Of a DNA stretch of 39,882 nt, positions 19,511 to 39,882 are shown piece by piece. The notes under the pieces were generated by a model. The model worked only from the letters and a program-made list of their open reading frames with translations. It was not told the origin of the DNA and made no database searches. The stretch lies in contig JARLHY010000128.1 in NCBI GenBank assembly GCA_031292015.1, positions 1 through 39,882 of the forward strand, written 5' to 3'. This DNA comes from Negativicutes bacterium (GTDB lineage: Bacteria > Bacillota_C > Negativicutes > Sporomusales_B > JARLHX01). The stretch's first letter is position 1; the number at the start of each line of letters is the position of its first letter. Position numbers and translations under genes: made by a program.

Positions 19511-19767
19511 CGGCCGTTGATAAACCCCCATCTGCTTTGCACCCGTAAAGGGCAGGCCGCATTTCTAAGCGCTAACGCGCAAGAACTGCGCACTTGGTCC
19601 CACAAACCCATTGCTAGCGTACTTCCCAGTACGCGCGATGCTGTTAAATCAGCCAGTGCAAACCCTTATGCTTAAAGAGTTCTCGGAGGAAACGGTGCTG
19701 CGGTTCGCGGGGCCGTCGTGCATCTGGGGGTTTCTGAACGGCCTGAAGAGAAGGTTTCTCAACAAGC
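19511..19767. repeat. Long palindromic repeat, copy 1 (degenerate, enlarged)
   Basis: Shares three blocks with the copy at 26632-26779 in the same order: a left arm (CCGTT..AAACCCCCATCTG), a 37-base identical core at 19599-19635 containing GCGTACTTCCCAGTACGC, and a 36-base identical right arm at 19712-19747 ending GGTTTCTGAACGGCC, then GGTTTCTCAACAAGC. Left and right arms are inverted with respect to each other, so the element can fold into one large branched hairpin. Extra sequence is present between the blocks in this copy. It fills the gap between the short genes and the phospholipase gene end. Confidence 0.85.
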
Positions 19768-24894: not shown

Positions 24895-25707
24895 TTACTC
24901 TTTTCCCGAGTCTCCAGTGTGGTCCGGTTCCAAGCGATTGTCCCGAAAGCTGAGCTGAAACAGCAAAATCGCGCTTGCGGCAACAATGTGTTTAAGGGTG
25001 TGTCCGCTGACCAACTGACCGGTCCAAAAAAATATTGACGCGTCCTGCCATTCCAAAACCTTGGCAACAGCATACCCTCCGCACAAGGCCCAATAAGGTC
25101 CGTCCCAGGACGGTCCTTTCCGGTACAGAATAATCACGGCAGGCAGCAATACCATCGGCAGATACTGCACCAGGATATAAGGACGAAGGTCCCCTGCCCC
25201 CGCTTTCTCGGTGGCCCACCAGTAAACCACACTTAATGCGCTTATTAGCATCAAGGGTGTAAACAGTAATTTTCCCGCCTTTATGCTGATCCTTTCAGCG
25301 ATCAAGGCTGCAGTCAACGAGGAAAACGCCAGCGTCATCGGCAGCCGGTCCCACACCAGGGTGTCATTGGACGGTTGCCAGTGATAATAGGCCGAGCCGA
25401 ACCCTACCAGGGTCACCGCACAATAGAAACTGACCCACATAAACTTACCTGCGAAGCCCGCTGATCTGCCAATACGCAGTAAGCCCGCCAGCCCGGCAAA
25501 CGTGAAGAAAATGTTTGAGAATACGTTAGCGCCGTTGACAATGCCAAAACGGCAAAGAGAATCGGCGAAGAGATGATATTGCTGATTTTGGGGGATCGGC
25601 GGAACACACGCCAGGGCAAGGGCGGCGATCAGGCCGATGCCGGCAAGAACGCGAAGCTTGGTCCTTGGCCGCAGGTTTTGCGCCAACAGGTACACATCAG
25701 AAGACAT
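24895..25707 (-). CDS. Ceramidase-like (CREST superfamily) membrane hydrolase
   Basis: 270 aa from ATG 25707, seven bases after AGGGGG. About seven transmembrane helices. The residues diagnostic of the CREST superfamily (alkaline ceramidases, PAQR receptors, Per1) are all visible: Ser105 and His109 in GSAYYHW, Asp120 in VWDRLPM, and His236/His240 in SGHTLKHI near the last helix, together forming a zinc site. The N-terminal FADSLCRFGIVNGANVFSN also matches bacterial ceramidase-like proteins. Probably hydrolyses an amide-linked lipid in the membrane; substrate unknown. Expression appears tightly repressor-controlled (see palindrome at 25706-25767). Confidence 0.85.
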   Translation of the reverse strand: MSSDVYLLAQNLRPRTKLRVLAGIGLIAALALACVPPIPQNQQYHLFADSLCRFGIVNGANVFSNIFFTFAGLAGLLRIGRSAGFAGKFMWVSFYCAVTLVGFGSAYYHWQPSNDTLVWDRLPMTLAFSSLTAALIAERISIKAGKLLFTPLMLISALSVVYWWATEKAGAGDLRPYILVQYLPMVLLPAVIILYRKGPSWDGPYWALCGGYAVAKVLEWQDASIFFWTGQLVSGHTLKHIVAASAILLFQLSFRDNRLEPDHTGDSGKE

Positions 25708-25767
25708 TGGAATACCCCCTACAATTAAGTTAACGATCGTTAACTTAATTGTAGGGGGTATTCCAAT
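25706..25767. repeat. 62-bp perfect palindrome
   Basis: Two 31-base arms meeting without a spacer at 25736/25737. It begins ATTGGAATACCCCC and has GTTAACGATCGTTAAC at its centre. It spans the region from the start codon of the ceramidase-like gene back to its -10 and spacer. It leaves only 14 bases to the stop of the FRG gene. Confidence 0.97.
25729..25744. promoter_or_regulatory. TetR-type operator GTTAACGATCGTTAAC
   Basis: 16-base perfect palindrome with the TTAACGATCGTTAA core typical of TetR-family operators, placed at the predicted transcription start of the ceramidase-like gene. Confidence 0.6.
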
Positions 25768-25781: not shown

Positions 25782-26534
25782 TTATCTGTCCTGTTTTCTT
25801 TTTGTTTTCGCGGCGGCGACCTTCAGCCGCCTGTCGAGCCCGTGCTTCCGTATCAGGAACCTGGCGAGTCCGTCGACATCCGGGAATATGCTGTATTCGT
25901 TCAGCCCGGCCAACTGCAGAAATCTCCTGGCTTCGGGGACGGCGTCAGACGGTAGGTCGATGCGGGTGACGCATTCCGGGCAGAGCTCTTCCAGCGGGGT
26001 TTCGCAGGCACCATGGATGGTGAAGTGTCCTTTCTGGGCAAAAATCCGTGAGCTTTGCATCGCCGGAAAAATCGCCAGAGGCAGTTGCAGTTCCTTCTCC
26101 TGATAGCGGACAACGCCGCGGTCCGGGTCGTATTCGACGACATCGGACTGAACGATCAGTTCATGGCCGCAGGCCCTTGCGTTCAATAATTCCGGCTCCA
26201 AGACCCAGATACAGGGTTTCGGGGCTTTGTCGCCCAAGGCGAAGTAAAGAGCGACGGCGAAGGTTTCGGTCCAGTCCAGCAGCCTTGTGGGGATGTGGGC
26301 GTGGCGCATTTCAAAGAGAGTCTCGACCGGCTCCATTTTCCGGTTGTTAGTCAGGGGCGCACAATAGGAAACAAAGTCATAGTAAACGTTGCATTCAACG
26401 TATTGTTTCCGCCTGACTCTGAACAGGCTGGGCAGCAGGGCATGGGCGGAGCTGGCGCAGCCCCGGTAGAACGGGTAGGAGACCCCTTTCGTCACCTGCT
26501 GAACTTCGTCGAGAAATTTGAGCCATGAACTCAC
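25782..26534 (-). CDS. FRG-domain protein
   Basis: 250 aa from GTG 26534, nine bases after AGGAG; the frame extends to 26606 but that part has no site. The FRG domain (named for its Phe-Arg-Gly-type motif) spans about 20-170: YPFYRGCASSAHALLPSLFR, LFEMRHAHIPTRLLDWTETF, AVALYFALG, and MQSSRIFAQKGHFTIHG. The C-terminal part is basic (KVAAAKTKRKQ). The biochemical activity is not established; the domain occurs in predicted anti-phage and toxin-like proteins, sometimes beside other effectors. Here it is a single gene with no evident partner. Confidence 0.88.
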   Translation of the reverse strand: MSSWLKFLDEVQQVTKGVSYPFYRGCASSAHALLPSLFRVRRKQYVECNVYYDFVSYCAPLTNNRKMEPVETLFEMRHAHIPTRLLDWTETFAVALYFALGDKAPKPCIWVLEPELLNARACGHELIVQSDVVEYDPDRGVVRYQEKELQLPLAIFPAMQSSRIFAQKGHFTIHGACETPLEELCPECVTRIDLPSDAVPEARRFLQLAGLNEYSIFPDVDGLARFLIRKHGLDRRLKVAAAKTKRKQDR

Positions 26535-26604
26535 GCGTATCAGCTCCTGTCCGCAGTGTTTTGCCCTATATTTCACGGCAATTGCCGCAAAGTCCTGCAG
26601 CCGC

Positions 26605-26632
26605 AAATAAAAAGAGGCTAGCCACGCCTCTC
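26605..26632 (-). terminator. Intrinsic terminator
   Basis: On the minus strand AGAGGCGTGGCTAGCCTCT followed by TTTTTATTT. Likely ends transcripts of the 3D-domain gene at 26838, reading through the repeat. Confidence 0.7.
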
Positions 26633-26779
26633 AGGCCGTTCAGAAACCCCCATCTGCTTTGTTGGCCCCACAAACCCATTGCTAGCGTACTTCCCAGTAC
26701 GCGTCGCTGCTGGGTTCGTGGAGCCGTCGTGCATCTGGGGGTTTCTGAACGGCCTGAAAAATACGGTTTCTCAACAAGC
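26632..26779. repeat. Long palindromic repeat, copy 2 (compact)
   Basis: Outer arms CAGGCCGTTCAGAAACCCCC and GGGGGTTTCTGAACGGCCTG form a 20+ bp perfect stem. Inside, CCACAAACCCA pairs with TGGGTTCGTGG (one mismatch) and GCGTAC/GTACGC makes the innermost hairpin with loop TTCCCA. The 37-base core (26667-26703) and 36-base right arm (26723-26758) are identical to copy 1 at 19511-19767. Confidence 0.9.
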
Positions 26780-28680: not shown

Positions 28681-28701
28681 GCGAATCCCCCCTGTACAAT
28701 A

Positions 28702-28743
28702 CCTTTTTTAGTGACTTCGCTGAACTGCGGCCGCTTCCTGCCA
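28702..28743 (-). promoter_or_regulatory. GCAGG-type recurrent upstream motif before the M20 peptidase
   Basis: On the minus strand TGGCAGGAAGCGGCCGC then CAGCGAAGTCACTAAAAA, about 20 bases before the start codon. Confidence 0.4.
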
Positions 28744-28861
28744 GGTTTGCCGATTATAGCAGCCGATCAGGTTATCATCCTTTATAATATATCCGGCAGC
28801 AAATGTGAGGACGATAGGGCTCCCGATCAAGGCGCTGTATGGCTTGTGGCCAAACTCTGCA

Positions 28862-29069
28862 GGCATCCATGCCCGGGGACTGCTTGCCTGGAAACTACGC
28901 TGGTATTTAGCGACATTGAGCGATATGGGTACTCTTAATGTGGAAATTTAGGCACGCCGCGACGTTGTGGAGGTTGTTACAGACCCGTTAGCACGAGGGC
29001 CGGTAACAACACCGTTCGCGCGAGCAGGACGCTCGCGCGAGGAGCCCCCAGGCATGGACGCCTGTGGGC
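28862..29069. repeat. Intergenic hairpin array with GGA loops, copy I
   Basis: Minus strand GGCATGGATGCC at 28862-28873; plus strand TCGCGCGAGC-AGGAC-GCTCGCGCGA (29016-29040, perfect 10-bp stem) and CAGGC-ATGGAC-GCCTG inside a wider stem (29044-29069). The intervening GGCACGCCGCGACGTTG is shared with 39750-39766. The same general layout recurs at 39496-39874. Confidence 0.75.
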
Positions 29070-29176
29070 GACGGTACGGCGTTGTCGGCACCGGGCGTTA
29101 CGGCCTGTGCAACCGGAACTCCGCTCGCGTCGGCCTAAATTTCGAGATAAAATGAAATCCCTGAGAAAGACAAAAA

Positions 29177-29209
29177 CCTCGTTGAATAGGCAGGGTGCCG
29201 TCAACGAAG
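29177..29209 (-). terminator. Terminator of the TIR-like gene; member of a repeated terminator family
   Basis: CCTCGTTGA / TCAACGAAG arms with an inner GGCAGGGTGCC stem, followed on the minus strand by TTTTTG. Related to 30306-30339 and 38183-38216. Confidence 0.8.
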
Positions 29210-29255
29210 TTTATTTTAGCCCCTTGAAAATGCGCGATTTATTTTGTCGAAACTA

Positions 29256-30074
29256 TTACCAATTTAACACTGTGTTAGTATCAATATTAAAACCCGCTTC
29301 ATGTAGTTCTTTAAAAAGTTTTTGTTTCCAACTGCCTCCTTTATCCATTGGAACGTAGACCACACCACTAAAATCAGAGGGTATCTCTACACCCTCAATG
29401 TATAATGGACAGACTCTTTCTCTCCCAATCTTAGCAACAAAATAACCTAATTCGGCAATTACATTTTGACGTGCTCGTGGACGAAGATTCTTGTCAACTT
29501 TTGCTTTTCCCTCATCATCAGGACTTAATATGATTATGGCAAAACCAACATCTGAATAGGCTTCCAATTTTTCAATTAAGGTTTTACCGGCATTAACTTG
29601 TTCATTTAGAATAATTGGATTAAGGCCAATTATTCTAACAAATCGTTCTATTTCACGCAAGGCTAATTTATCATGACCATGAACAATAAATACTTTATCG
29701 TTCTGGATTGATCGATTTTTTATGTAATTTCGTGTTGGTTCTATTGTTTGCTCAATGGAATCATTGTAAAGGACAAGCTGCTCTTTTATAGATTCTATCT
29801 TACTAATCCTAGCTCGAATGCTCTCTATGTAACTGTCAAAAGTAGACCCTTTTCGGGCATCAGGAACTGTTAAGGAATAGCTATTGGCTATTATCTTTGA
29901 ACCAAATATTTTTTGTAAAAGGGTCACATTAAAACTATTAAACTTTCTATATTTTAGCAGCATATCAGTGGCCGATAAAGGAACTTTATATTCGTTTAAT
30001 AATTTCGTTCCTATTTCAACTCGCTCGCTCAATAATCTTTCTGCTTCCTGCCTCGATACAGCTAGTGATTCCAT
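29256..30074 (-). CDS. TIR-like nucleotide-binding protein (PF10137-type, CAP12-like)
   Basis: 272 aa, ATG with AGGAGG five bases upstream. Residues 1-120 form a helical/coiled-coil part of unknown fold (LLSERVEIGTKLLNEY, then RARISKIESIKEQLVLY). Residues 127-262 match the TIR-like nucleotide-binding domain: KVFIVHGHD (127-135), SPDDEG (184-189), RPRARQNVIAELGYF with the likely catalytic Glu208, and KIGRERVCPL. Related domains degrade NAD+ in bacterial anti-phage systems (CBASS/Pycsar TIR effectors). The gene is AT-rich against GC-rich neighbours, a sign of transfer, and is bracketed by related terminators. Trigger and partner unknown. Confidence 0.88.
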   Translation of the reverse strand: MESLAVSRQEAERLLSERVEIGTKLLNEYKVPLSATDMLLKYRKFNSFNVTLLQKIFGSKIIANSYSLTVPDARKGSTFDSYIESIRARISKIESIKEQLVLYNDSIEQTIEPTRNYIKNRSIQNDKVFIVHGHDKLALREIERFVRIIGLNPIILNEQVNAGKTLIEKLEAYSDVGFAIIILSPDDEGKAKVDKNLRPRARQNVIAELGYFVAKIGRERVCPLYIEGVEIPSDFSGVVYVPMDKGGSWKQKLFKELHEAGFNIDTNTVLNW

Positions 30075-30101
30075 CTAAACCTCCTGCTATGTATCATTTT
30101 A

Positions 30102-30137
30102 CAATTATTACTTCCGACAATAATCGAATTATCCTGC
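30102..30137 (-). promoter_or_regulatory. GCAGG-type recurrent upstream motif before the TIR-like gene
   Basis: On the minus strand GCAGGATAATTCGATTATTG followed by TCGGAAGTAATAAT, about 28 bases before the start codon; the same class as upstream of native GC-rich genes. Confidence 0.4.
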
Positions 30138-30305
30138 ATATTTTACCTGAACAAAAAGGATTAAAGCTACGCGCCTGGGTCTATTCCGAACTAGGCATCA
30201 GAAATTCACGCACCCCCGCAGGCAAGCTTATGGTCTATTCTGCCGCAGCTCCGCTCACGCCGGCCTAATTTCGCGATGAGATGGGGTAAACGAAAACAAG
30301 AAAAA

Positions 30306-30339
30306 CCTCGTTGAAAAGGCAATTGCCCAGTCAGCGAGG
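30306..30339 (-). terminator. Terminator of the nucleobase-uptake operon; repeated terminator family
   Basis: CCTCGTTGA / TCAGCGAGG arms, inner GGCAATTGCC, then TTTTTC on the minus strand; 40 bases after the MFS stop. Confidence 0.82.
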
Positions 30340-30379
30340 TTTATTTTCATCTTAATAAAACATCCGAAACAGAAAAAAA

Positions 30380-31534
30380 CTATTCCCTCTTCCCTGCCAC
30401 GCCGGCAAAAGCGGTCAGCAGGGTCACGGCAGCCATCAGGCCGGCGGACACGGCCAGGACGACGGTGACGCCGAAGCTGGCCTTGATGTAGCTGGAAACA
30501 ACAAAAGACATCATGCCGCTCGCCCCGCTGATGGTCAGAAAGAAGGTGGTCAGTCGCGACGAAGGCCGCGGCACCTGCAGCGTGCCGTAGGACAAAATGG
30601 TGGCGTACAGGCCGGAGTAGCCAAGGCCGATCAAGGCGATGAGGGCCATGGCGATATAGGCGCTCCTGGTCAGCAGCAGGGCTACCAAGGTGGTGAAGGC
30701 CACTACCGAGCAGGCGATGATGAAAAGTCTGAGGCTGAATTTGTTGATGAAGAGTCCGGACAGGAACCGCCCGGTGGCCATGAAGACCCAGAAAATGGAC
30801 AGGCTGGCGCTGGCGAGTTCCACCGACAGTTCCAGGACATCCAACATGTACAGAACCATCCAATAGGTCAGGATCATCTCCGACATGACGTAGCTGAGCA
30901 GGGTCAGGCCCATGAGATATACTTTGGCGTTCCAGGCATCATCGGCGTCGGCGGTACTGGCAGCCTTGCGCGGCCGCAGATCGAACTTAACCAGGGCGAG
31001 GGCTACCACTCCCAGCGGCAGAACCAGCGAACCCAGGTAGATCGACTGCCAGCCGATGCCCCGCCCCAGAGCCAGACCGGCCAGGATGGGGGCAATGATT
31101 GATCCCAGGGAAAAGTAGAAGTTCAGAAGACTGACCCGGGAAGCCCGCGCTTCATCGTCGTACAGGTTCATGATGAAATAATAGGAAACAGACAACAACG
31201 TGCCCATTCCTACACCGTAGACAAAGATAAAAAAAGAAAAAGCCGCGAGGCCCGGCCAGCAGGCGGCTCCAGCCACCGCGGCAATCGCCAGGCAGGAGGC
31301 CGCCAGCGTCTCTTTTCGGACATTGATCCGGTCGAGGATAAAGCCATTGCCGAGAACGGCCAGACTGTAGCCCACCGAAAACAGGGTGAAGCGCAGGCCG
31401 ATGACGGCAGTATCCACACCGAAGGCTCCGGCGATGTCTTTGGTTACCACGCCGGCCAGGCTGAAGGTCACGCCGATGGACAGCATGATATGGTAAGCCA
31501 AGGCGGTAAGCCGCCCTGTCCGTGGATCAGGCAA
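30380..31534 (-). CDS. Major facilitator superfamily transporter
   Basis: 384 aa, about twelve transmembrane helices. Begins at TTG with GGGGG nine bases upstream and overlaps the xpt stop by eight bases, so it is the last gene of the nucleobase operon. Family-type features are a central cytoplasmic loop (LRPRKAASTADADDAW) between helices 6 and 7 and the early charged loop after helix 2 (DRINVRKET). The substrate is unknown; placement after xpt suggests a purine, nucleoside or related drug/analog exchanger or exporter. Confidence 0.9.
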   Translation of the reverse strand: MPDPRTGRLTALAYHIMLSIGVTFSLAGVVTKDIAGAFGVDTAVIGLRFTLFSVGYSLAVLGNGFILDRINVRKETLAASCLAIAAVAGAACWPGLAAFSFFIFVYGVGMGTLLSVSYYFIMNLYDDEARASRVSLLNFYFSLGSIIAPILAGLALGRGIGWQSIYLGSLVLPLGVVALALVKFDLRPRKAASTADADDAWNAKVYLMGLTLLSYVMSEMILTYWMVLYMLDVLELSVELASASLSIFWVFMATGRFLSGLFINKFSLRLFIIACSVVAFTTLVALLLTRSAYIAMALIALIGLGYSGLYATILSYGTLQVPRPSSRLTTFFLTISGASGMMSFVVSSYIKASFGVTVVLAVSAGLMAAVTLLTAFAGVAGKRE

Positions 31535-36895: not shown

Positions 36896-37240
36896 TCTGG
36901 ACATTACCTCCCCTGTTGTTGTCTTGACGACATGGAAATACATTACTAGACAACCATTCACCGCGTCTTTATTTTCCCCTGCCGGAAAATAAAAAAAACA
37001 GCGGCAAAAAGCCACTATTTTTTATGAGTGGTCTAGACAGAATTTCCTGTTTTTTAAAGGTGACTTTTTTTTGCGAGAAAAATCTTTCCATAATCTAAAT
37101 ATAGCTGATTTGCCGGAAGGAAACGGGACGGTTTGATGGCGAACTATTCAGCCAGATACATAACAGGTTTGGAGTGTCAAAGGCTCTGTTCGCGGATTGC
37201 TGGGGTACATGCCAATCAAAACTTGGAACGGAGGATGAAG
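36896..37240. other. Divergent promoter region of BMP operon and MBL gene
   Basis: 345 bases with the AT-rich leaders of both genes, an 8-bp palindrome GTCTAGAC (37031-37038), a related TTGTCTAG at 36946-36953, and a hairpin CCAC/GTGG around 37011-37030. I checked for a purine riboswitch upstream of the BMP gene and did not find its conserved core. Confidence 0.45.
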
Positions 37241-38158
37241 ATGGACGTTTTGAATCGACGGGACTTTTTGAAAGGCGGATTGGTGGCTGGCACGGCGGTG
37301 CTGGGGATGTCGATGATCGGGGATCTGGCGTCAAACTCCCTGCTCAAAGGGCCGGGTATCGCCGAGGCCGCCGGGGTGCAGCCGGAATACGACATCTACG
37401 CCTGCAGGTACGGCGGTCCGATCACCCGCAAGGTGGCAATCGCTCTGTGGAACAACGGCTGGGACCAGGACGGCCAGATCAGCTACTACGTCTGGGCCAT
37501 CAAAGCCGCCAACGGCGAAGTCATCGTGGTGGATACCGGCGCCAGCCCGGCTCTGGGCGCGGCGCGCAAAGTCGCCGACTACACGGACCCGGTGGAGGTG
37601 CTGGCCCGGATTGACGCCACGGCGGACAGCGTGACCAAAGTGGTGGTCACCCACATGCACTGGGATCATGTGGGCAACATCGACAATTACCTCAAAGCTT
37701 TCCCAAAAGCGAAGATCTATGTGCAAAAGCGGGAATTCGACTTCTGCGTGAAGAGCGGCATTGCCCAGCGCAAGCCTGTCTCCGTCCTGTTCGACCATGA
37801 CGCCATCAAGACGGTGGGTTCGCTGGCCGGTTCCGACAAGCTGGTGATCGTGGACGGCGACGTCAACCTCGTTCCCGGGATTGACCTTTTCCTGGCGCCC
37901 GGTCACACGCTGGGTCTGCAGGTGGTCCGGGTGAATACCGCCAAGGGCGCGGCGATCGTGGGCTCAGACCTTGCCCACCTCTTCCGGGGCTACCGGGAGG
38001 ATACCGGCAGCGCCTTCATCATGGACATGCCGGCATGGATCGGCAGCTTCGACAAGATCAAACCCAAAGCCAGCATCGACCTGATCTTCCCAGGCCACGA
38101 CATCCAGATGACCGACAACTACCCCGCCGTGGCCGAGGGCGTCACGAAACTGGTGTAA
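37241..38158 (+). CDS. Tat-exported metallo-beta-lactamase-fold hydrolase (lactonase-like)
   Basis: 305 aa from ATG 37241, six bases after GGAGG; earlier in-frame starts (37133, 37235) lack a proper site. Twin-arginine signal RRDFLK at residues 6-11, cleavage near AEAA. MBL core: THMHWDHVGN (HxHxDH), LAPGHTLGLQ (third His), GSDLAHL (Asp bridging), and the C-terminal FPGHD (His). The layout resembles N-acyl homoserine lactonase-type quorum-quenching hydrolases, but the substrate is inferred only by similarity. Acts in the periplasm after folding in the cytoplasm with its metals. Confidence 0.9.
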   Translation: MDVLNRRDFLKGGLVAGTAVLGMSMIGDLASNSLLKGPGIAEAAGVQPEYDIYACRYGGPITRKVAIALWNNGWDQDGQISYYVWAIKAANGEVIVVDTGASPALGAARKVADYTDPVEVLARIDATADSVTKVVVTHMHWDHVGNIDNYLKAFPKAKIYVQKREFDFCVKSGIAQRKPVSVLFDHDAIKTVGSLAGSDKLVIVDGDVNLVPGIDLFLAPGHTLGLQVVRVNTAKGAAIVGSDLAHLFRGYREDTGSAFIMDMPAWIGSFDKIKPKASIDLIFPGHDIQMTDNYPAVAEGVTKLV

Positions 38159-38676
38159 GAACAACACTGAGACACAGAAAAACCTCGCTGAAAAGGCAAC
38201 GGGCCGATCAGCGAGGTTTTTTTGCCAAAAGATCCAGATAGTAGTTTGCAAAGTATTATGGCCTCTTCGGATCGGGTGGCCGGATTGTGCTTCTTGTCCA
38301 AAAGAAAACGCCCTTGCGCTGATCGCGCAGGAGTTATGTTGGCTTGATCTATTTGCGGGGTAGTTTTCCTGCGGTAGATCCACAAACCGCAAACGGATAT
38401 CATATCCGTTAGGTTTTAATATGCCGAGAATAGCGCCACCCGTCTTTTTTCGCATGAATAAACCGCCGTGAATCATTACCGTGATTTTCTTAAACCATCG
38501 AAAAGTCAATTACGAGTCATACCGGAACGAGAACTCTGTCAGCTTGGTGTGAAAAATAAATATTTTTCCAACAAAGTGGGAATTTCAGATAAATTTCAGT
38601 GCTTTATATAAAATAGTGGATATAATGGTAAACATAGTATTATTTTTCAATAAATTTACAAAAAGGGGGAAGTATC
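38159..38676. other. 518-base gene-free region upstream of the outer-membrane protein
   Basis: Contains the terminator at 38183-38216, a 19-bp palindrome AACGGATAT-C-ATATCCGTT (38392-38410), a strong -10 TATAAT at 38621-38626 without a good -35, and an AT-rich leader. An open frame on the minus strand (38509 down to 37964) has no ribosome binding site and crosses the terminator, so I do not call it. Confidence 0.5.
38183..38216. terminator. Bidirectional terminator; repeated terminator family
   Basis: CCTCGCTGA / TCAGCGAGG arms with an inner GGC..GCC stem; U-tract TTTTTTT on the plus strand. Same design as 29177-29209 and 30306-30339. Confidence 0.88.
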
Positions 38677-39412: not shown

Positions 39413-39882
39413 CTGTGTTTTCTCTGACGATTAGACCCTACTATCTCTCCCTCCACCAACCGGAAACCGCTTTTTATGTACGAACCGCGCCATGACGCAT
39501 CCATGCGCAGGGGCTCCTCGCGCCACGTTCTGAATCTCTGGTTTTATCCGACAGCATTGTCATGTATATATTCCGGCTGGCCGCCTTTTTTGTGCGAGCC
39601 ATCCTTGGCCGCGCGTGCGGCGGTCTTGCCACTTAAGCCTAACGGCGCCTAAGATCTTCCGCAACACCGCCGGACACCTTTGCGGCCTCTCTCCTTAAAA
39701 TAGTCAGCATTCTGCGGAATTAGGCGGTATGGATACTCTTATATGGAAATTCAGGCACGCCGCGACGTTGCGGAGGATGGTACAGGCCGTTAGTGAAGCC
39801 TGTAAGCGGGTAAGGCGAGCCGAGGCACGACGCCGAGGCAGTCACCCCCGGCGCATGGACGCGACGTGGGTGACGTCCGCGC
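39413..39882. other. 470-base gene-free tail with hairpin arrays and a decayed frame
   Basis: No gene supported. Hairpins on both strands (39496-39507 minus, 39841-39874 plus) and text homologous to 28925-29070. A short frame without start (39544-39648 minus; AARAAKDGSHKKGGQPEYI) may be a gene relic. Confidence 0.6.
39496..39874. repeat. Intergenic hairpin array with GGA loops, copy II
   Basis: Minus-strand CGCATGGATGCG (39496-39507) preceded on that strand by GAGGAGCCCC; plus-strand ACAGGC/GCCTGT around 39791-39812, GGC-ACGAC-GCC near 39825-39835 and GTCACCC...ATGGAC...GGGTGAC (39841-39874). Shares TATGG.TACTCTTA and GGCACGCCGCGACGTTG with copy I. Confidence 0.7.

Follow-up and report, generated by a model that had tools for sequence, protein, structure and literature searches.

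An AT-rich gene for a TIR-domain protein, bracketed by two similar blocks of DNA in a 39,882-nucleotide stretch of a Negativicutes genome (GenBank assembly GCA_031292015.1, contig JARLHY010000128.1; the whole stretch is hereafter the window), is sporadic and foreign-looking, and was most likely gained horizontally. It is probably a solitary abortive-infection gene, whose product would, by analogy with SpbK of Bacillus subtilis, work as a phage-triggered NADase. The bracketing blocks (A and B) are most likely bystanders, being the 3' ends of dispersed TwoAYGGAY elements (Rfam RF01731) that stand beside terminator-like hairpins.

The TIR protein matches the profile PF10137 (CAP12/Pycsar TIR) at 125.5 bits against a cut-off of 24.7 (E=1.4e-36), and it matches the PADLOC defence candidate family PDC-S35 over residues 83-269 (E=9.3e-73) or, with profile PDLC05004 of the same family, over residues 39-269 (E=1.2e-67). 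Judged by these matches it is a further PDC-S35 member, ordinary in kind; like the family it is a single gene, no difference from the family was seen, and the family is itself a candidate. An alignment of 52 homologues bears out the HGHD and catalytic glutamate motifs that a preliminary description of the window, made by a model from the sequence, had pointed to: H132, G133 and E208 are invariant, H134 is conserved in at least 90%, and Glu208 aligns with the glutamate in the NVVFE stretch of SfSTING, the TIR-STING protein that is the closest solved fold to the TIR domain. The open reading frame is intact, carries the conserved residues and is preceded by a Shine-Dalgarno site. The N-terminus, described earlier as helical, is predicted to form four helices within residues 1-110 (pLDDT 90.3, pTM 0.82). 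Because W45, N49, F57 and Y66 are conserved in at least 90% of the 52 homologues, this N-terminus is a feature of the family and no local addition; of the 119 best-listed relatives, 112 extend over 94% or more of the protein and take in the N-terminus. A PF10137 protein from Clostridia (P0026) has its usual N-terminus replaced by one that weakly resembles AbiTii (E=0.003, below the cut-off), a hint of exchangeable sensors.

Composition sets the gene apart from its surroundings, as had been noted. With a GC content of 34.7%, and of 24.9% at third codon positions (GC3), it is the most AT-rich of the 38 window genes tested; the other 37 average 57.0% GC (lowest 44.9%) and 70.1% GC3 (standard deviation 7.1). 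Comparison with relatives drew on six genomes of one family, the closest that was found, which were reached from a Clostridia locus and then through the MFS protein encoded next to the TIR gene, and to which the window was assigned by protein identity. None of these six yielded a TIR relative at E<=0.001, nor did any of the 28 genomes searched at the level of the order with E<=1e-20 (genome completeness is not given for either set). The statement that the gene is absent from relatives is limited by one distant PF10137 domain protein in a genome of the order (G364). Across the class, 6 of 380 genomes gave a PF10137 score higher than the cut-off of the profile; where they align, five of the six proteins are 36-49% identical to that of the window, and the sixth, that of G364, is 28% identical over 78 residues.

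The operon that ends beside the TIR gene (BMP-ABC-xpt-MFS) is kept in four of the six family genomes, with 73-85% identity from BMP to xpt (81-85% for the ABC permeases) and 46-48% for MFS; here TIR, M20, MFS, FRG, 3D and xpt were named by profile, while BMP, ABC, DUF169, peptidyl-prolyl isomerase and deacetylase are our reading of the sequences. At none of the four comparable loci does the TIR gene or the M20 gene stand next to the matching operon end. Deacetylase-type and phosphodiesterase-type genes follow the operon in all four and a DUF169 gene in three, and the piece adjoining MFS in the relatives was read by eye as a peptidyl-prolyl isomerase. Relatives of the M20 protein occur in three of the six genomes, in different surroundings. 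Foreign composition, together with absence from close relatives and from the matching operon end, fits the horizontal gain of one gene that the preliminary description had proposed. No donor can be named, since the nearest database relative of the protein is only 51% identical; the cluster to which the protein belongs lists 7 contigs.

The proposed function is modelled on SpbK, encoded by the B. subtilis element ICEBs1. In published descriptions, SpbK starts with a four-helix bundle (residues 1-94), which a linker of 18 residues connects to a TIR domain (113-266), and its N-terminus is not seen in the solved filament (PMC12847820); docking of the bundle on the portal protein of a phage clusters the TIR domains and turns on NAD+ cleavage (PMC12847820; PMC11984713). 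The window protein resembles it in being a single gene on mobile DNA with the order helical bundle, linker and TIR and a TIR end near residue 270. Likewise, the TIR glutamate lies two residues before a glycine in both (E192/G194 in SpbK, E208/G210 in the window protein). They differ in that the SpbK TIR is reported to be closest to SPARTA (PMC12847820), whereas that of the window protein is closest to SfSTING. A phage-triggered NADase is proposed because of this SpbK-like layout, the similar size and the lack of a fixed partner gene. In such a protein, binding of a trigger, by analogy with SpbK a phage structural protein, would cluster the N-terminal bundles, the clustered TIR domains would assemble, Glu208 would drive NAD+ cleavage, and the infected cell would stop ahead of phage release. 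Both the NADase activity and the defence phenotype of the protein are what we infer.

That the gene would act without a partner, as the preliminary description had suggested for a single-gene defence candidate, agrees with the neighbourhoods of its homologues. The PDC-S35-type family is large (7,255 proteins at E<=0.001 among 7,999 candidates scored), and 29 near-full-length loci were hand-picked from 80, some similar ones (e.g., L066, L071) being left out; this gave 97 neighbour genes, at most two per side, counted without a control set. No recurring partner gene was found in this sample. The commonest neighbours were TIR genes (four PDC-S35 genes in three loci), and a TIR-effector profile was matched by 5 of the 97; next came families represented twice, among them DNA methylases and cyclic-nucleotide-binding proteins. 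At three of the 29 loci (L010, L012, L048), extra PDC-S35 genes or gene pieces adjoin the homologue.

Several observations weigh against a SpbK-like phage-triggered NADase. No paper was found under the name PDC-S35 in the literature searched, and the window protein has no known activity or phage phenotype. A search with the N-terminus alone was uninformative, and comparison of its model with PDB folds gave no clear match. A consensus promoter was looked for just 5' of the gene and none was found. Among the 1144 plasmid records with relatives of the TIR part, only one covers at least 80% of the protein. A PDB sequence search with E up to 10 returned no SpbK chain (the presence of that entry there was unchecked), and because SpbK is missing from the sequence comparison its link to the window protein is one of layout, an analogy and not membership. 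A signal-making enzyme may also lie elsewhere in the genome, beyond the window.

This last point leads to a rather unlikely alternative, in which the TIR protein responds as effector to a nucleotide signal: an enzyme encoded elsewhere would make a cyclic nucleotide or ADP-ribose product, to be bound by the N-terminal bundle, as in CBASS, Pycsar or Thoeris-like systems. PF10137 is named for the CBASS protein Cap12 and the Pycsar protein PycTIR, both profiles match weakly (E=2.2e-9 for Cap12; E=1.1e-10 for PycTIR, residues 115-248 only), TIR-STING is the closest solved fold, and a cyclic-nucleotide-binding domain is encoded by two of the 97 genes neighbouring homologues. However, the matches to the Cap12 NCBIfam equivalog, which has a cut-off of 450 bits, score 37.0 and 30.6 bits and concern the TIR part only; the TIR domain is N-terminal in Cap12 and SfSTING but C-terminal in the window protein, which has no STING domain and no adjoining cyclase. 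PycTIR shares the PF10137-type TIR in its C-terminal part, yet no cyclase stands beside the window gene. The lack of a clear solved-fold match for the N-terminus also speaks against a signal effector, as does the lack of a recurring cyclase family among the 97 neighbours, for which families found once were not all listed. Slightly more weight, although it is still unlikely, goes to a function other than phage defence, such as action against plasmids, or to a non-functional passenger. Sporadic presence and low GC would suit any mobile cargo, and such a role would also sit with the plasmid-borne TIR-part relatives, the promoter search and the lack of a known phenotype; the intact frame, the Shine-Dalgarno site, the conserved residues and the PADLOC listing of the family as a defence candidate argue the other way. 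A phage-triggered NADase of the SpbK type is the reading we retain.

The blocks that bracket the gene had been described as two direct homologous stretches of roughly 100 bases, and this proved correct: 29113-29217 and 30243-30347 are 73.6% identical over 106 columns (71.9% over 121 columns in an alternative alignment), with E=4e-15 against the window, a likeness beyond chance, and both copies have the same orientation. In each block a TwoAYGGAY 3' arm is joined to a terminator-like hairpin, two kinds of repeat that are also found separately, and identity varies by module (31/41 in the arm, 14/27 in the spacer, 41/50 in the hairpin). Hairpin identities are 82.0% for A and B, 77.6% for A and C, and 83.7% for B and C, where C is a third copy elsewhere in the window. 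Hairpin A would end the TIR gene and hairpin B the upstream MFS operon. The earlier claim of a same-family terminator in each block stands as regards a related hairpin in each; however, the consensus scan recognised neither A nor B, so that "terminator" is a reading of the hairpin fold, and the third copy shows the hairpin outside the blocks. An exact-pattern search for the hairpin family found it in none of the six family genomes, and block B DNA gave only chance-level matches in relatives (best E 0.06). A weak match to the trpB noncoding RNA motif spans hairpin B (30294-30400, minus strand; 29.0 bits, gathering 59, E=0.17) and probably reflects merely a shared terminator-like stem.

Table 1. 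Coordinates of the TIR gene, the repeat elements and hairpins around it, and a second defence candidate in the window.
Feature	Positions	Strand	Remarks
TIR gene	29256-30074	-	272-aa open reading frame; PF10137 and PADLOC PDC-S35 profile matches
Residues 1-110, proposed sensor	29745-30074	-	Predicted to hold four helices, of which one is short; interpreted as a four-helix bundle
HGHD motif, residues 132-135	29670-29681	-	From translation; conservation in 52 sequences
Glu208 codon, predicted catalytic glutamate	29451-29453	-	Invariant, 52 sequences
Shine-Dalgarno AGGAGG	30080-30085	-	5 nt before the TIR gene ATG; direct reading of sequence
TwoAYGGAY element A	28942-29148	+	Paired outer arms GAAATTTAGGC / GCCTAAATTTC; Rfam core 28965-29121
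Terminator-like hairpin A	29170-29217	both strands foldable	38 nt past the TIR stop codon
Element B, 3' stump of a second TwoAYGGAY-type element	30228-30276	+	3' arm 31/41 identical to A
Terminator-like hairpin B	30298-30347		32 nt past the MFS stop codon
Terminator-like hairpin C, third copy	38176-38223		After gene 37133-38158 (+)
Second TwoAYGGAY element, cut by the window end	39709-39882	+	34.9 bits, under the gathering cut-off of 43
FRG-domain gene, second PADLOC candidate (PDC-S15)	25782-26606	-	PF08867 E=9.3e-16; PDC-S15 E=1.1e-35

Element A is recognised by the RF01731 covariance model (48.9 bits, gathering 43), and over its full 207 nt it folds at -111.4 kcal/mol (z -6.1). The copy cut by the window end is 81.6% identical to the 5' part of element A over 87 columns. 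In the region 28700-30500, searched with E up to 10, only element A matched RF01731 and block B did not; the sequence 5' of B (30150-30228) shows no similarity to element A (247 of 300 shuffles score equally well). Because both the element-like sequence and the RF01731 match are missing there, B is read as a stump. RF01731 was found in 6 of the 28 genomes of the order, with 15, 28, 17, 24 and 33 matches in five of the six family genomes, none in the other (G390) and five in G364 (E<=0.001; some matches are partial or below the Rfam cut-off). Thirty copies were sampled, five each from the five family genomes and G364. In the flanks outside the Rfam model, pairing within a copy averaged 31.7, against a mean of 14.6 and a 95th percentile of 31 between copies. 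By mechanical calls of open reading frames, 7 of the 30 lay between convergent, 11 between tandem and 4 between divergent genes, 5 lay within an open reading frame and 3 could not be placed. The genes beside them yielded one PADLOC match in 86 at E<=1e-10 (no matched control), which suggests that TwoAYGGAY elements are no marker of defence cargo. TwoAYGGAY behaves in these genomes as a multicopy dispersed hairpin whose outer arms extend past the Rfam model, in contrast to its Rfam type of cis-regulatory; a table of 2010 marks it as not cis-regulatory (PMC2864571).

How the blocks came to flank the gene depends in part on how often element ends are so alike. Of 50 same-genome pairs drawn from the five family genomes, 3 had 3' ends at least as alike as those of A and B; the figures are 7 of 10 in G364, 10 of 60 over all six genomes and 31 of 375 between genomes. 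Since such ends are uncommon in the family, local duplication and entry through the repeats both keep some probability. It is possible, if doubtful, that the blocks record the insertion itself, the cassette having entered a TwoAYGGAY element or recombined between two and left B as a stump: the 5' part of the element is missing from B near the end of the AT-rich stretch, the blocks share an orientation, and ends this alike are uncommon in the sampled family genomes, whereas alike pairs do occur elsewhere, hairpin B is about equally close to C and A, and the genes beside sampled copies include no more than that single PADLOC match. The other origin that the preliminary description had offered, a local duplication by which the insert came to lie between two copies of the upstream operon's 3' end, is disfavoured and very unlikely. 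The order of arm and hairpin is the same in both blocks, and the fact that close pairs are uncommon in the sampled family genomes leaves it some room, but block A belongs to a complete TwoAYGGAY element, whose end it forms, a hairpin of about equal similarity (C) stands elsewhere, the spacer between the modules is poorly conserved, and the repeats of which the blocks consist are also found apart. A reading that joins both subjects is improbable as a whole: TwoAYGGAY would be mobile, like a miniature inverted-repeat transposable element (MITE) or a repetitive extragenic palindrome (REP), and not a cis-regulator; one copy would have been broken by, or served as landing site of, the TIR cassette; and the cassette would be the PF10137 counterpart of SpbK, of the same design and sensing a phage structural protein directly. 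Bystander element ends are the explanation we prefer for the blocks.

A second defence candidate lies near the gene. The TIR gene is flanked most closely by M20, 3D and FRG on one side and by MFS and xpt on the other, and no cyclase match was found among its ten neighbours (not every window gene was scanned), in keeping with the claim that no cyclase is nearby; however, the FRG gene, itself a defence candidate, is 2.6 kb away. Directly 3' of the FRG gene, at 25706-25767, stands a perfect 62-base palindrome of two 31-nt arms without a loop, which may mark the end of an element or have arisen in assembly. Another dispersed repeat occurs as a pair, with pieces 89-98% identical and inverted repeats inside, at 19512-19767 and 26631-26779, the latter copy lying just 5' of the FRG gene.

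In summary, two families are touched by these observations. The 15 to 33 RF01731 matches per genome, together with arms that pair within each copy, suggest that this RNA, an orphan of long standing, belongs among the dispersed hairpin elements. The PDC-S35 family is large, and if its N-terminal bundle is SpbK-like, a single test of the trigger would suggest a mechanism for many genes.
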